Below, one piece after another: positions 1,011-5,103 of a DNA stretch of 36,122 nt. The notes under the pieces were generated by a model that was given only the letters and a program-made list of their open reading frames with translations, was not told the origin of the DNA and searched no databases. The stretch is from a virus: positions 1-36,122 of IMG/VR virus record IMGVR_UViG_3300009149_000123. The stretch is one strand, 5' to 3'. Within the stretch, counting starts at the first letter, position 1; every line of letters begins with the position of its first letter. The position numbers and the translations under genes are program-made.

Positions 1011-1508
1011 ATGTCTCAAGAACTTGCACTTCAAGAATTGGAAAACGAACTAAAGTTAGCTTTTGCTGACGCTTGGTTACGTTATCCTTCTGATCCATTT
1101 AAAGCAGCTTTAGTTGTTACCAAGGGTGACTCTTTAGCTGCTTTAAGTGTTCTTGACCGATATCAAAGAGATCCCGAACTATATGATATCAAAGCTGCAT
1201 TGATCGAAGAATACGGGGAAGAAGCTTTCTTACCAAGCAAAGAGCAAATGGTAAGGCAGGTTCTTGACAGAGCGGAAAGGGCAGTTGAAGACGCAGACTA
1301 TTGTAAGCTTATGGCTTTAGCTTTCGATGCAAGAGGTATGACAAGTAAAGCTAACGGTGGTGCAAATGTTGTAATCAATAACAACACTGACAATAGAACA
1401 ATGTCAATACCAGTTATGATTAACTCTGCTGGTAATGTTGCTTCCGACGAAGAATGGGAACAAGCTTTAATTCAACAACAGAAGACTTTGGTGGCACATG
1501 ACAGGTAG
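1011..1508 (+). CDS. terS: Terminase small subunit
   Basis: This 165-residue protein lies immediately before the large terminase and overlaps it by 11 bases. The small subunit recognises packaging sites on phage DNA and hands it to the large subunit. The first about 110 residues are predicted mostly helical, with a repeat-like pattern (YPSDPFKAALVV; EAFLPSKEQMVRQVL), typical of the DNA-binding and oligomerisation part. The C-terminus is Asn- and Gln-rich and acidic. AGGTAAG at about 1002-1008 serves as ribosome binding site and overlaps the upstream stop codon. The assignment rests on position, size and helical character rather than on a signature motif. Confidence 0.7.
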   Translation: MSQELALQELENELKLAFADAWLRYPSDPFKAALVVTKGDSLAALSVLDRYQRDPELYDIKAALIEEYGEEAFLPSKEQMVRQVLDRAERAVEDADYCKLMALAFDARGMTSKANGGANVVINNNTDNRTMSIPVMINSAGNVASDEEWEQALIQQQKTLVAHDR

Positions 1509-4500
1509 TTGGACCTTACCCACAGTTGAAGATATTCAGCGACAAAAAGAAGAAGAACGCAAGTCGTTACTTTCTAATTTTGATTCGCTTACTTCACGTA
1601 TGGGCGAAAGGTCGAAACTGTTACAGCGACTAACAGAAAAACCGAAGACAAAAGCAGAAGAACTTGGCGACAGGTTGGAGCATGAGAATACAATAGTGTG
1701 GGAACCTATCCCAAACTCTTCACAATCTTTTGCTATTGCTACAAGAGCACACCATACACTAATGCACGGTGCGCGTGGTCCGGGGAAAGATATCTCTGTT
1801 AATACATTGGTTTTGACAGATAGCGGTTGGAAGAAAGCAGGCGACGTTAACCTTACGGATATGTTGGTTTCGTCCGATGGTTCGTACACCAAGTTGTTGG
1901 GTATCTACCCACAAGGTTACAAAACAAACCTGTATTTGGTTACTTTTGACGATGGTTGTCAAGTTGTTGCTGGTGCTGACCATCTATGGACTGTGGGCAA
2001 CAATAAGCGATTCAAAAGAGAAGGATACAAAGTACATACAACAAAATGGTTGTATGAAGCTCCTAGTCAATGGGGCGTTCCTTACTTGTCTAGTCCAGCA
2101 GACGGTAAGAAATGGGAAGGTTTTGATCCGTATGCAATTGGCTTAATGCTTGGTGACGGAACAATGGGTTCCCAATACCCAACACTGTATTCGCAGGATG
2201 AGGAAATCGTAGCCTACATGGAAGTAGCCCACGATTGGAAAGTATACAAATACGATCTTTACCGCGCTGTTGCCACAAAGAAATCTCAATGGAAAGCTTT
2301 AAGAGAACTATGGCCTAACAAAGAAAAAGCCGAGTTCAAAAGTGTTCCCCGTGATTTGATGGTAGCCGATCCTGCTTCCAGATTAGCGGTGTTACAAGGA
2401 CTGATGGATACAGACGGTAGTATAGAAAAAAACGGTAACAAGTGTAGGTTTGTTTCTTTATCGAAACAACTTGCAGAAGACGTGGCTGAATTGGTAAGGT
2501 CTCTTGGTGGAAAAGCACATTGTTATTTTGAAAACAGACCATCCCCGAAGGGCGGTAAAGATCATCGCTGGCGAGTTAATTTCAATTGTCGTGATAAGTT
2601 TATACCATTTCGATTGACACGAAAATGGGAACGTTGCCAGACAACCAACAGGGTACAAAACCTTAGATACATCAAGTCAATTGCACCAACTTTTCCAGAC
2701 CATACAGTTTGTTTCAGTGTTGCTCATCCTTCAAAACTATTCGTTGTTCAAGGTCACGTTCTAACACACAACACAATCACCCAACTTATGCGGTTCAGGT
2801 CAAGAGTAGGGTTAGGTTACGGTGCTTACTGGCGTGGTGTTATCTTTGACCGAGAATTTAAGAACCTATCGGACCTTGTAGCGCAGTCTTTGAGATTTTT
2901 CCCAAAGTTTGAAGATGGTTGTAAGTGGTTAAAGTCAGCAACCGAATTTAAATGGACGTGGCCTACAGGTGAAGAGTTACTATTTAGGCATGTTAAAAAG
3001 TCAGAAGATTACGACACTTTCCACGGACATGAATACCCTTTCATTGGATGGAATGAATTAACAAAACATCCAACGTCTGAGGTTTACGACAAGTTTATGT
3101 CGGTAAACCGTAGTTCTTTTGATAGGGAAAAACATACACCTATAATTAAGACTAAAGACGGTTACAGGTACAACACACCAGACGGTGAACCATTACCGCC
3201 AATAACACTTGAAGTTTTTAGCACAACTAATCCTAATGGTCCCGGTCATAATTGGGTAAAGAAAAGGTTTATTGATGTTGCTAAGAACGGTGAAGTTGTT
3301 AAAAAAGAAGTTAAGTACTTTGACACACTAAAAGGTGAAGAGGTGACTGTTGTTCGTACACAAGTTGCTATCTTCGGATCATTTTACGAAAACCCTTACC
3401 TTGATCCAATCTATCGCGCAGGTTTGATTGAATCTTGTGCAAATAACCCTAACCTTAAAGCTGCTTGGATTGATGGGCGTTGGGACGCAAATAGCGGTGG
3501 TGCTATTGATGACCTTTGGAACAGCGAAATACACATTGTAGATCGGTTTAGAATACCGAAAGCATGGAAGGTAGACAGAACATTTGACTGGGGTTCTTCA
3601 CACCCGTTTTGTACTGTATTTTGGGCAGAAGCAAACGGTGAAGAAGTTAAGATGCCTGATGGTACAACTTGGTGCCCAGCAAGGGGTTCGTTGATTGCGA
3701 TAGAAGAAGATTACGGTTCGGAAGCAATTGGAACAAACAAAGGGTTGAAGCTATCCGCTAAAGACGTGGCTTTGCGTATTGTTGCAAAAGAACGTGCTTT
3801 GTTATCAGAACAATGGATTGTAAGAGGTGTTCAAGCTGGACCGGCAGATAATCAGATTGATAATGTGACAGAAAGCGACGTTGATACAATCGCTTTTAAA
3901 ATGAAACAACACGGTATTGCTTGGACTAAATCAGATAAGTCTGCTGGTTCAAGAATAATTGGTTTGCAGTTAATGCGAGATAGGTTGCAGTCTTCTGTTA
4001 CAAAAGAAGGACCAGCTATCTACTTCATGCGTAATTGTGTTAATGCAATCGATCTGTTGCCTTCACTTCCAAGAGATCCAGACAAACCAGACGATGTTGA
4101 TTGTTGGGTTGCGGGTACAATGATTGCAACACCTAACGATGATGTTCCAATCGAATTTATTCGGAAAGGTGACTTTGTAAGTACCCCTATCGGACCAAGA
4201 AGAGTTACCAAGAGTTATGTTTCCGGTAGAGCCGCCACTACGCAAGTTTTTCTTTCAAATGGTGTTTTGAGCGAAGGCACGAATGATCACAAAATTTTTG
4301 TAGAAGGTGCTGGTCTTGTTCCTCTGTCTCTGTTATATCATGGGCTTCCTTTAACCTTGGGCGTCTCAGAATGCCAAAATACCTTGAGTATGACGGAATT
4401 CTTTACACGCGATGGGGCGACCGCGATTACTATTCGCCAAACGGAACCGTCCTTGCTAACGGCGGAACTAGCTTGCATCGACAGGTTTGGATTGACAACA

Positions 4501-5103
4501 AAGGACCAATTCCAGAGGGATTTCATATCCACCATATTGACCACAATACAGACAACAATTACATTGAAAACTTGTGTATGGTCCAGGCTTCGGAACACGC
4601 TCGATATCATTTGGCTTTACGTCGCGAGTCAGGGGAACTTGCCGCTTCTCGCGAAGCTTGGTTGGACAATGGGGGGCGGGAAGTTCTTCGCAAGAATGCT
4701 CAAAAGATGCGTGAAAACACACCCGAAAGGAAATTTACGTGCTCTGATTGTGCTTGCGAAGTTAGAACAAAACATCCGTCTCAACAGTATTGCGAAATCT
4801 GCACAACTAAAAGAAACGCAAAAGGGTATAATTCAAAACCCTGCCCTGTGTGTGGGAAAGAGTTCTTCTACAAAACACATTCAAGAAAACAAGTTAAGTC
4901 TTGTAGTGCGAAATGTGGTTGGGTGCTACGAAAAAAAGCAAGTGTATAACATTACTGTTGAACAAGCAGGTTTGTTTTACGCTAATGGGCTACTATCTTC
5001 TAACACAGAAGCAGAAGATCATTATTGGGATGCTGTTAGATACCGTGTGTTAAAAGGTTCTAACAAATGGGCAACAAAAATCAAAACAAACTTTGTAAGG
5101 TAA
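1498..5103 (+). CDS. terL: Terminase large subunit precursor interrupted by two inteins
   Basis: The packaging motor ATPase/nuclease is encoded as a 1201-residue precursor. Removing residues 98-425 (intein 1) and 869-1169 (intein 2) leaves a 572-residue extein, a normal TerL size. The extein joins GARGPGK to TITQLMRFR, restoring a P-loop GxxGxGKT. A Walker B-like stretch EYPFIGWNE lies at about residues 512-520, a nuclease Asp at about 697 in FDWGSS, and joining PDDVD to TEAEDHYWDAVRY restores the C-terminal nuclease motif. Both inteins therefore sit in catalytic motifs, so splicing is needed for function. The ATG overlaps the terS stop, and portal follows after 4 bases. The reading frame is uninterrupted throughout, including under the nested HNH gene. 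Confidence 0.95.
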   Translation: MTGSWTLPTVEDIQRQKEEERKSLLSNFDSLTSRMGERSKLLQRLTEKPKTKAEELGDRLEHENTIVWEPIPNSSQSFAIATRAHHTLMHGARGPGKDISVNTLVLTDSGWKKAGDVNLTDMLVSSDGSYTKLLGIYPQGYKTNLYLVTFDDGCQVVAGADHLWTVGNNKRFKREGYKVHTTKWLYEAPSQWGVPYLSSPADGKKWEGFDPYAIGLMLGDGTMGSQYPTLYSQDEEIVAYMEVAHDWKVYKYDLYRAVATKKSQWKALRELWPNKEKAEFKSVPRDLMVADPASRLAVLQGLMDTDGSIEKNGNKCRFVSLSKQLAEDVAELVRSLGGKAHCYFENRPSPKGGKDHRWRVNFNCRDKFIPFRLTRKWERCQTTNRVQNLRYIKSIAPTFPDHTVCFSVAHPSKLFVVQGHVLTHNTITQLMRFRSRVGLGYGAYWRGVIFDREFKNLSDLVAQSLRFFPKFEDGCKWLKSATEFKWTWPTGEELLFRHVKKSEDYDTFHGHEYPFIGWNELTKHPTSEVYDKFMSVNRSSFDREKHTPIIKTKDGYRYNTPDGEPLPPITLEVFSTTNPNGPGHNWVKKRFIDVAKNGEVVKKEVKYFDTLKGEEVTVVRTQVAIFGSFYENPYLDPIYRAGLIESCANNPNLKAAWIDGRWDANSGGAIDDLWNSEIHIVDRFRIPKAWKVDRTFDWGSSHPFCTVFWAEANGEEVKMPDGTTWCPARGSLIAIEEDYGSEAIGTNKGLKLSAKDVALRIVAKERALLSEQWIVRGVQAGPADNQIDNVTESDVDTIAFKMKQHGIAWTKSDKSAGSRIIGLQLMRDRLQSSVTKEGPAIYFMRNCVNAIDLLPSLPRDPDKPDDVDCWVAGTMIATPNDDVPIEFIRKGDFVSTPIGPRRVTKSYVSGRAATTQVFLSNGVLSEGTNDHKIFVEGAGLVPLSLLYHGLPLTLGVSECQNTLSMTEFFTRDGATAITIRQTEPSLLTAELACIDRFGLTTKDQFQRDFISTILTTIQTTITLKTCVWSRLRNTLDIIWLYVASQGNLPLLAKLGWTMGGGKFFARMLKRCVKTHPKGNLRALIVLAKLEQNIRLNSIAKSAQLKETQKGIIQNPALCVGKSSSTKHIQENKLSLVVRNVVGCYEKKQVYNITVEQAGLFYANGLLSSNTEAEDHYWDAVRYRVLKGSNKWATKIKTNFVR
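1789..2772 (+). mobile_element. Intein 1: class 3 (W-C-T) intein with LAGLIDADG endonuclease, in the TerL P-loop
   Basis: The 328-residue intein begins with Asp (DISVNTLVLTDSGW, block A) and ends in THN, with Thr as the +1 extein residue. The N-terminal residue is neither Cys, Ser nor Ala. Block B reads AGADHLWTV, with Trp two residues after the conserved His. Block F reads TVCFSV, with Cys at the usual Asp position. Block G is VLTHN with Thr before His-Asn. These are the W, C and T residues that define class 3 inteins, in which the block F Cys makes the first nucleophilic attack. Between the splicing blocks are two LAGLIDADG motifs: IGLMLGDGT and LQGLMDTDG. The boundaries are set by restoring the P-loop Gly-Lys-Thr. 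Confidence 0.93.
4102..5004 (+). mobile_element. Intein 2: Cys-type intein in the TerL nuclease motif, carrying an out-of-frame HNH gene
   Basis: The 301-residue intein begins CWVAGTMIATP (block A), with GTNDHKIFV as block B (Thr-x-x-His). It ends in VYNITVE (block F, Asn where Asp is common) and NGLLSSN (block G, Ser instead of the usual penultimate His), with Thr at +1. The boundaries restore PDDVD-TEAEDHYWDAVRY. Only about 90 N-terminal and about 30 C-terminal residues look like splicing domain. The roughly 190 residues between them match nothing recognisable and are the alternate-frame reading of an HNH endonuclease gene at 4371-4949. This is effectively a mini-intein whose linker codons double as another gene. 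Confidence 0.9.
4371..4949 (+). CDS. HNH homing endonuclease nested out of frame inside TerL intein 2
   Basis: The 192-residue protein is read in the -1 frame relative to terL. It has the layout of free-standing phage HNH homing nucleases: an N-terminal Tyr/Gly segment (YDGILYTRWG), LHRQVW, the catalytic core GFHIHHIDHNTDNNYIENL and ASEHARYH. Two Cys pair sets follow (CSDC...CEIC; CPVC...CSAKC), probably zinc-binding DNA-recognition elements. It begins with ATG and ends TAA, entirely within the intein. No strong Shine-Dalgarno precedes the ATG, so how it is translated is unclear. Frame 3 is open from 4287, and a run of seven A at 4931-4937 lies just before its stop, so a frameshift product is conceivable. 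Its likely job is to spread the intein by cutting intein-less terL. Confidence 0.85.
   Translation: MPKYLEYDGILYTRWGDRDYYSPNGTVLANGGTSLHRQVWIDNKGPIPEGFHIHHIDHNTDNNYIENLCMVQASEHARYHLALRRESGELAASREAWLDNGGREVLRKNAQKMRENTPERKFTCSDCACEVRTKHPSQQYCEICTTKRNAKGYNSKPCPVCGKEFFYKTHSRKQVKSCSAKCGWVLRKKASV

Follow-up and report, generated by a model that had tools for sequence, protein, structure and literature searches.

Overprinted inteins: an HNH endonuclease gene nested out of frame within a phage terminase intein, and the recurrence of this layout in related phages

Introduction

Inteins are usually described as single proteins responsible for both splicing and homing. Fractured genes, in which a free-standing endonuclease lies between the halves of a split intein, were reportedly described by Dassa et al. 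in 2009.

An HNH gene placed out of frame within phage DNA methylase genes defines the ShiLan domain (Arsenault, Gosselin and Gogarten 2025; PMC11855218). Since intein splicing blocks are absent, the protein presumably retains the ShiLan insert, and its homing was inferred from a patchy distribution (PMC11855218). The terminase protein TerL is a frequent phage intein host (PMC5050341), and it is in a terL gene that the arrangement described here was found.

Results

The host terL gene and its two inteins

The DNA analysed, referred to below as the window, is the 36,122-nucleotide virus record IMGVR_UViG_3300009149_000123, in which the following features were delimited.

1498 to 5103, plus strand: TerL precursor open reading frame (ORF) with two inteins; 1201 codons without a stop; phrog_2 TerL, E = 7e-27
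1789 to 2772, plus strand: intein 1, conventional, with a LAGLIDADG endonuclease in frame; LAGLIDADG_3, E = 2e-8
4102 to 5004, plus strand: intein 2, 301 residues from Cys1 to Asn301, with Thr at +1; block HMMs, and TIGR01443 above cut-off
4102 to 4365, plus strand: predicted N-terminal half of the Hint domain, residues 1-88; AlphaFold pLDDT about 96-98, in the 80s at the last residues; solved inteins match
4371 to 4949, plus strand: overprinted HNH_3 endonuclease gene, 192 residues, -1 frame relative to the intein; HNH_3, E = 5e-14
4372 to 4884, plus strand: intein-frame reading of the HNH gene, an unconserved stop-free linker at the Hint-domain endonuclease slot; mostly low pLDDT (32-72), no stops
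4885 to 5004, plus strand: predicted C-terminal half of the Hint domain, residues about 262-301; AlphaFold pLDDT mostly 79-97; block C HMM at 4936-5007

The TerL ORF, uninterrupted along its full 1201 residues, matched many phage TerLs by tblastn. Intein 1, inserted at the Walker A motif (between GPGK and TITQ) and missing from two relatives (L003 and L004), provides an internal contrast to intein 2 within the same ORF.

Intein 2 begins with the Cys at 4102-4104 and ends with the Asn at 5002-5004, flanked by one extein ending DDVD and another beginning TEAEDH; its C-terminal half carries block F as VYNITVE and closes with NGLLSSN. The C-terminal block exceeded the NCBIfam TIGR01443 cut-off, and the match to Pfam Hint_2 was weak (E = 5e-4, below cut-off). 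The AlphaFold model adopted the Hint fold (residues 1-88 plus about 262-302, mostly pLDDT 95-98) and, in Foldseek, paired with two solved inteins, gp41-1 and Mtu RecA, at E about 7e-6 with target TM values reaching 0.88, indicating that the splicing fold is probably complete. The residues expected to conduct splicing were present, namely C1, T60 and H63 of the block B TxxH motif, N301 and the +1 Thr, with C1, H63 and N301 invariant across the 46 inteins aligned; as judged from sequence and model, intein 2 would be predicted to splice from the TerL precursor. The 301-residue extent given by a prior sequence-only reading of this DNA was upheld, with small corrections to splicing and zinc-site details: Ser stands in place of the penultimate His, and the zinc cysteines are only partly conserved.

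A Pfam search of the intein frame from 4372 to 4884 matched no endonuclease family. An intron was likewise rejected, no group I intron RNA being matched in the window at the Rfam gathering threshold.

A complete HNH gene in the endonuclease slot, one frame off

The ORF at 4371-4949 was confirmed as Pfam HNH_3 (PF13392; 52 bits against a cut-off of 24.8) and matched phrog_15471 (E = 1e-21); a profile check of related HNHs detected the HNH_3 domain in 40/40. It occupies the endonuclease slot of intein 2 one frame off, and its stop codon, TAA, is made from the host codons TAT AAC that specify Tyr-Asn of block F. The central proposal of the sequence-only reading, that an otherwise complete intein with no in-frame endonuclease harbours a complete 192-residue HNH gene in the -1 frame, with the host frame open beneath it and the same bases satisfying both frames, was thereby substantiated, as was the resemblance that it saw to free-standing phage HNH genes. 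The gene was unannotated in OP947163, TJE1 and Highwayman: overprinted HNHs of this kind escape gene callers.

In the family alignment the catalytic His/Asn/His residues were conserved (H54, H55, N63, N67 and H76 invariant); the zinc-site cysteines C124, C127 and C141 were also invariant, with C137 retained in at least 90% of sequences. The solved structure nearest to the HNH model (pLDDT 88.8) was the homing enzyme I-HmuI, a match that was weak by Foldseek (E = 0.07) and stronger by profile search (E = 3e-5). Substitutions between the window and its relative L003 were distributed 31/17/67 over the three codon positions of the HNH frame, which is under coding-type purifying selection across close relatives. 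Host-frame protein conservation beneath the HNH was sought in the same comparison and none was found, the linker exhibiting 60% amino acid identity where the unused third frame showed a similar 58%.

These data bear on the suggestion that a free-standing gene landed in the intein and is now an unused, decaying or neutral passenger. In Brochothrix BL3 (L095) the two parts of a split intein flank an HNH that seems to be truncated, which would suit such a history. That history is nevertheless highly unlikely given the coding-type substitutions, catalytic and zinc residues that stay invariant even among highly diverged copies, and HNH frames that were intact in essentially all nested loci.

Recurrence across phages

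Far from being singular, the arrangement proved to be the way in which this HNH family normally occurs in terminase inteins. A first sample of viral sequences, picked by homology, held 72 distinct HNH relatives; 48 of them lay within an intein in a different frame, the host frame being HNH+1 in 45 of the 48. A second, new sample gave 53 of 58, all 53 in the HNH+1 phase, so that the pooled figure was 98/101. The double-coded layout was thereby recorded in more than 100 distinct phage lineages, including the isolate phages TJE1 (a Tetrasphaera phage) and Highwayman, and also in bacterial genome contigs, one from an isolate bacterial genome (L125). Many of the nested loci are metagenomic contigs. 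Block HMMs for the inteins were built from the first sample, and independent support for the nested inteins came from Pfam Intein_splicing (42/50) and TIGR01443 (38/50). Among HNHs of this family no in-frame fusion was found.

The HNH start lay a median of 89 codons downstream of Cys1 in nested loci, and the stop lay 18 codons upstream of the intein Asn in 20 of 48. On the HNH tree nesting was scattered, strongly supported branches forcing at least five changes. A split-intein version, with N- and C-terminal halves in separate ORFs, was present in seven related loci of the first sample; split versions with the same HNH family included L033, L038, L093 and L095, among others.

It was conceivable that the HNH is truly in frame in the window, and only appears displaced by compensating sequencing or assembly indels upstream and in the A7 run at 4931-4937, given that this homopolymer lies near the C-terminal junction and the HNH frame is open back to 4287. 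The chance of this is negligible: L002-L004, three contigs from separate samples representing one 79%-identical lineage, have no A7 run yet keep both frames intact in the same phase, while the spread of the layout over isolate phages, an isolate bacterium and so many lineages, together with proper HNH starts and stops, also weighs against such errors. A broken HNH frame in relatives, the other weakness that the sequence-only reading had foreseen in its own case, did not materialise.

The host gene was terL in nearly all nested loci, and free-standing relatives adjoin terL, as might be expected were the HNH a packaging accessory working with terminase, as has been proposed for HK97-type HNHs, and not a homing enzyme. 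This seems very unlikely: the gene sits where inteins canonically carry their endonuclease, its distribution is sporadic, one host is a portal gene (L051), and the nearest solved structure is that of I-HmuI.

Translation of the nested HNH

The ribosome-binding signal at the window's own HNH start was weak (-3.0). Across nested genes such signals were stronger at HNH starts (mean -4.5) than at other ATGs of the same ORFs (-2.9; p = 6e-4), although at about half of the starts they were no better than controls. About half of the nested genes had an in-frame stop at most seven codons ahead of the HNH start, one of them directly ahead of it; the HNH stop, often supplied by the C-terminal splicing block, lay inside that block in most. 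These features suggest that the HNH is probably translated separately from its own start. Programmed ribosomal frameshifting, in which ribosomes would slip by -1 ahead of the HNH and regain the host frame beyond it to yield an occasional in-frame HNH-intein fusion, would accord with the nearly constant phase and with the weak signal in the window. The upstream stops, the enriched ribosome-binding signals and the HNH's own stop make a fusion produced in this manner very improbable, and no slippery motif was noticed by eye at the window junction.

Selection against stops in the host frame

In the window alone, evidence that the host frame is open other than by chance was marginal by one measure: shuffling the HNH's own synonymous codons gave 2.0 expected host stops (P = 0.06 for none), and local codon usage gave 4.3 (P = 0.002). 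The decisive result was family-wide. Forty-five nested genes contained no host-frame stops against 2.45 expected in each by shuffling, which predicts only 3.5 of the 45 to be free of them. By way of contrast, stops were normal in the third frame of the same genes (15.8 versus 16.9 expected), and no avoidance was evident in the second frame of free-standing (5.9 versus 5.65) or split relatives (6.0 versus 6.9).

Stop-creating NTN codon pairs were used at 0 of 1,666 opportunities in nested HNHs, compared with 24-29% in free-standing or split relatives, and Met preceding a codon that starts with A at 0/124, compared with 16/50 (p = 3e-10). Host stops are therefore excluded by codon choice and even by amino acid choice, and the open frame, which the sequence-only reading supposed merely to have happened to remain so, is kept by selection, not luck, across more than 100 lineages.

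Discussion

Proposed mechanism

Taken with the observed architecture, its recurrence, the coding selection on the HNH, the avoidance of host-frame stops and the complete predicted Hint fold, intein 2 is most probably mobile, with homing carried out by the product of an overprinted gene that has its own initiation. Against this stand the weak ribosome-binding signal at the window's HNH start, the penultimate Ser of intein 2 and the metagenomic origin of many loci. The two functions would be split over two overlapping reading frames and not combined in one fused protein. Translation of the TerL frame would yield a precursor from which the Hint domain excises itself to restore TerL, the stretch beneath the HNH serving only as a linker without stops where an endonuclease usually sits. 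Initiation within the intein would yield an I-HmuI-like nuclease with an HNH motif and a zinc site, which on sequence grounds is predicted to cleave terL alleles without the intein and so drive homing, repair then copying the whole cassette. Because TerL would be lost if the host frame were closed, selection would keep that frame open through synonymous and some amino acid choices in the HNH; the HNH+1 phase would be favoured since few codon pairs create host stops there and since the splicing block often provides the HNH stop.

We lean somewhat towards a broader reading, that overprinted inteins constitute a class of mobile inteins that is large and has not been described before, with a separately translated homing enzyme held to one phase by stop avoidance and terminated by the splicing block; that they arose or were exchanged several times and can break into split inteins; and that they may be the main form of this HNH family in phage terminase genes.

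Splicing and homing would then proceed from overlapping frames within essential packaging genes of over 100 phage lineages, giving a concrete route by which free-standing endonucleases, mobile inteins and split inteins may be connected. The loci also provide naturally occurring dual-coding sequences, full-length at about 200 codons, for which free-standing and split relatives are clean controls, so that selection in overlapping genes becomes measurable. It would be worthwhile to re-examine ShiLan-like insertions, and inteins whose large inserts are unexplained, for endonucleases hidden in other frames.

Comparison with known systems

A literature search for out-of-frame HNHs in inteins turned up nothing beyond the ShiLan work and a genome note, one relevant preprint falling outside its coverage. 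The supposition of the sequence-only reading that there was no precedent is to be qualified, given the out-of-frame HNH published in 2025 in a phage methylase without an intein (PMC11855218).

Conventional mobile inteins share with intein 2 the Hint domain and an endonuclease at the canonical slot, but theirs is fused in the same polypeptide (LAGLIDADG, or HNH as in L138, L140, L143 and L147), whereas intein 2 has its endonuclease encoded by a distinct gene in a different frame. Free-standing homing-type HNH_3 genes adjoining terL (in PAE1, SN1, vB_AbaM_BP10 and PhiSTP1) belong to the same protein family and neighbourhood, but are intergenic, non-overlapping and devoid of second-frame stop avoidance. 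I-HmuI, although structurally nearest, is the enzyme of a group I intron, a setting unlike the window, which has no intron signal in Rfam and a host frame open throughout.

The closest precedents are ShiLan, with an out-of-frame HNH and no intein, and the fractured split inteins. In ShiLan, as in intein 2, an HNH is hidden in an insertion beneath which the host frame stays open in the same phase (host = HNH+1). No splicing blocks were found on checking the flanks of the ShiLan insert, whereas the intein 2 HNH sits within a Hint splicing domain; close kinship of the two HNHs was rejected, profile scores of about 20 bits marking a distant relationship only, and ShiLan comprises few cases in one type of host gene. 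Fractured split inteins likewise place a free-standing endonuclease between intein halves, but in the window and the other nested lineages those halves remain one continuous ORF.

The terminase gene of the window and its inteins

The 36-kb IMG/VR record of the window is siphovirus-like and encodes both the small and the large terminase subunit, portal, head and tape-measure proteins, and a DNA polymerase, a helicase and a primase. The coordinates and frames that the sequence-only reading had assigned to the second intein of the large terminase (TerL) and its HNH gene proved correct on re-reading, the relevant features being as follows.

1498-5103: TerL ORF, 1201 codons open, with two inteins inside
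1789-2772: intein 1, conventional, with a LAGLIDADG domain in frame
4102-5004: intein 2, 301 amino acids, splicing blocks present
4371-4949: nested HNH_3 gene, 192 amino acids, complete, in the -1 frame relative to intein 2

An endonuclease was looked for in the frame of intein 2 and none was found. The predicted structure of intein 2 contained a complete Hint domain formed by residues 1-88 and ~262-302 (pLDDT mostly 95-98), the middle overlapped by the HNH gene having a pLDDT of 32-72; the best-matching solved structures were the gp41-1 and Mtu RecA inteins. The HNH model (pLDDT 88.8) was nearest to I-HmuI.

Intein 1, missing from the relatives L003 and L004 (contigs of the second lineage considered below), has Asp as its first residue, and what we take to be the class 3 (WCT) positions are occupied by Trp (DHLW), Cys (TVCFSV) and Thr (LTHN). 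Its insertion point is the Walker A motif of TerL.

Reality of the two-frame layout

A search with the HNH protein recovered a second lineage, 79% identical across all 192 residues and represented by three contigs (~99.9% identical to one another) from different metagenome samples, in which the same HNH occupied the same TerL intein in the same phase with the intein frame open. The run of seven A residues at the 3' junction (4931-4937), named in the sequence-only reading as a possible site of sequencing error, is missing from this lineage; the shared phase thereby ruled out a sequencing artefact as the source of the frame offset and confirmed the architecture. Comparison of L002:401-641 with L003, both of this lineage, revealed a small indel that disrupts the N block of the intein and probably reflects misassembly.

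Tetrasphaera phage TJE1 and Acinetobacter phage Highwayman, both isolates, also had the nested layout, as did Rhodobacteraceae phage record OP947163, where the TerL site was a few residues off; the nested HNH was unannotated in all three records.

Recurrence across the HNH family

Two samples of best-scoring relatives, many of them metagenomic, were classified, a gene being scored as nested when the HNH lay out of frame in one ORF, flanked by the N block and the C block of an intein. The first, selected by HNH similarity alone, comprised 72 distinct genes (<90% identity), of which 48 were nested, seven were split (located between intein halves in separate ORFs), 13 were free-standing without an intein, and four had a single block only (contig end or weak block). 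The second, non-overlapping sample, classified using block profiles trained on the first, yielded 53 nested genes out of 58. Further nested cases were recorded in bacterial genome contigs from several phyla, and the layout is thus a recurrent one. Of the 101 nested cases, 98 had HNH+1 as the host frame; the host gene was TerL nearly throughout, with one portal.

Matches to Pfam Intein_splicing (42/50 hosts) and TIGR01443 (38/50) provided agreement between independent libraries indicating that the hosts of nested HNHs contain an intein; in an alignment of 46 inteins, Cys1, the His of block B and the final Asn never varied.

The portal example (L051:4016-7207) was a nested out-of-frame HNH intein in a Phage_portal_3 gene, and at L058:1165-4398 a single TerL ORF contained a pair of such inteins, each hosting a separate nested HNH out of frame.

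In-frame fusion of this HNH family was never found among the loci scanned. The same procedure did pick up apparently conventional inteins in which a distant HNH domain is fused in frame (L138, L140, L143 and L147), and was therefore able to see such fusions. Possible inteins of this conventional kind comprised these four loci together with L094, L126 and L127, from bacterial, archaeal and phage records.

Constraint on both frames

Substitutions between the window and L003 at HNH codon positions 1, 2 and 3 numbered 31, 17 and 67, the pattern expected for an HNH-coding gene. The intein-frame reading beneath the HNH showed no extra conservation in the same comparison (60% identity vs 58% for the unused third frame), and is therefore not conserved as protein sequence.

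When each HNH's own synonymous codons were shuffled, 2.45 host-frame stops per gene were expected for 45 nested genes of the first sample and none was observed in any; only 3.5 of the 45 were expected to be stop-free. In the second sample the host frame was open in 53/53, against 3.2 stops expected. Host-frame stops were as numerous as expected in free-standing and split relatives, and stops abounded in the third frame of nested genes. An uninterrupted ORF is part of the definition of the nested class, so these expectations are more fairly set against the proportion of intein-flanked HNHs with an open host frame, namely 48/55 and 53/53 in the first and second samples respectively.

Stop-making NTN codon pairs were used at none of 1,666 potential positions, compared with 24-29% in controls. 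An internal HNH Met followed by an A-starting codon occurred in 0/124 nested cases vs 16/50 in controls (p = 3e-10), so that the constraint extends to the amino acids of the HNH itself. The intein frame under the HNH is thus unconserved in sequence, yet kept open by selection.

Preferred phase and HNH boundaries

When the host frame is HNH+1, only two contexts create a host stop: an HNH codon NTA followed by A or G, and NTG followed by A. The other phase would normally incur ~14-17 stops per gene, and each of the three nested cases deploying it avoided 6.7 (own codons) to 13.6 (local usage) expected stops. Loci recorded in that phase (host = HNH+2) were L043, L063 and L087/L088, in each of which the 2.7-10.5 stops predicted from own codons were avoided.

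The favoured phase also allows the intein C-terminal block to supply the HNH stop, as it usually does: host V-Y-[N/D] encoded as TAT AAY or TAT GAY gives the HNH frame a TAA or TGA, and in the window the stop derives from host TAT AAC. In 20/48 first-sample and 25/53 second-sample cases the HNH stop ended 18 codons short of the terminal Asn. HNH starts, assigned by rule, lay at the usual endonuclease position of inteins, a median of 88-89 codons downstream of Cys1.

Expression and proposed mechanism

Nested HNH starts had stronger predicted ribosome-binding signals than the remaining ATGs of their ORFs (mean -4.5 vs -2.9; p = 6e-4), and in about half of nested cases an in-frame stop lay no more than seven codons upstream of the start, which argues against frameshift entry as a general route. 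The signal in the window was weak (-3.0), and HNH translation there may consequently depend on passing ribosomes.

Drawing on knowledge of these families, we infer that the TerL precursor is most likely translated right through and then spliced, the HNH being made separately from it, and that HNH cleavage would drive copying of the cassette into intein-free terL by homing.

Origin and relationship to split and free-standing copies

Nested, split and free-standing copies were intermixed in the HNH tree, for which parsimony required 15 changes between nested and not nested; strongly supported branches forced at least five changes of the commonest nested label. Free-standing copies often adjoined terL. 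The history is likely to have been one of repeated moves among intergenic, nested and split states.

Split-intein TerL genes in which a member of this HNH family separates the halves were recorded at L033, L038, L046, L053, L062, L069, L086, L093, L095, L100 and L114. The seven split cases from the first, viral sample had host-frame stops at normal frequency and strong ribosome-binding signals at their HNH starts.

Comparison with known systems

In conventional inteins the endonuclease is fused in frame, and split inteins with free-standing endonucleases were reportedly described by Dassa in 2009. The searchable literature yielded no example of the overprinted HNH-in-intein combination on such a scale; priority is nonetheless uncertain, since the ShiLan paper (PMC11855218) cites bioRxiv 2025.01.02.630785 for overlapping frames in actinophages. 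The ShiLan element itself, inserted in phage DNA methylase genes, has its HNH out of frame but no intein around it (PMC11855218), whereas the nested HNHs characterised here lie inside one; its phase is the same as that favoured here (host = HNH+1).
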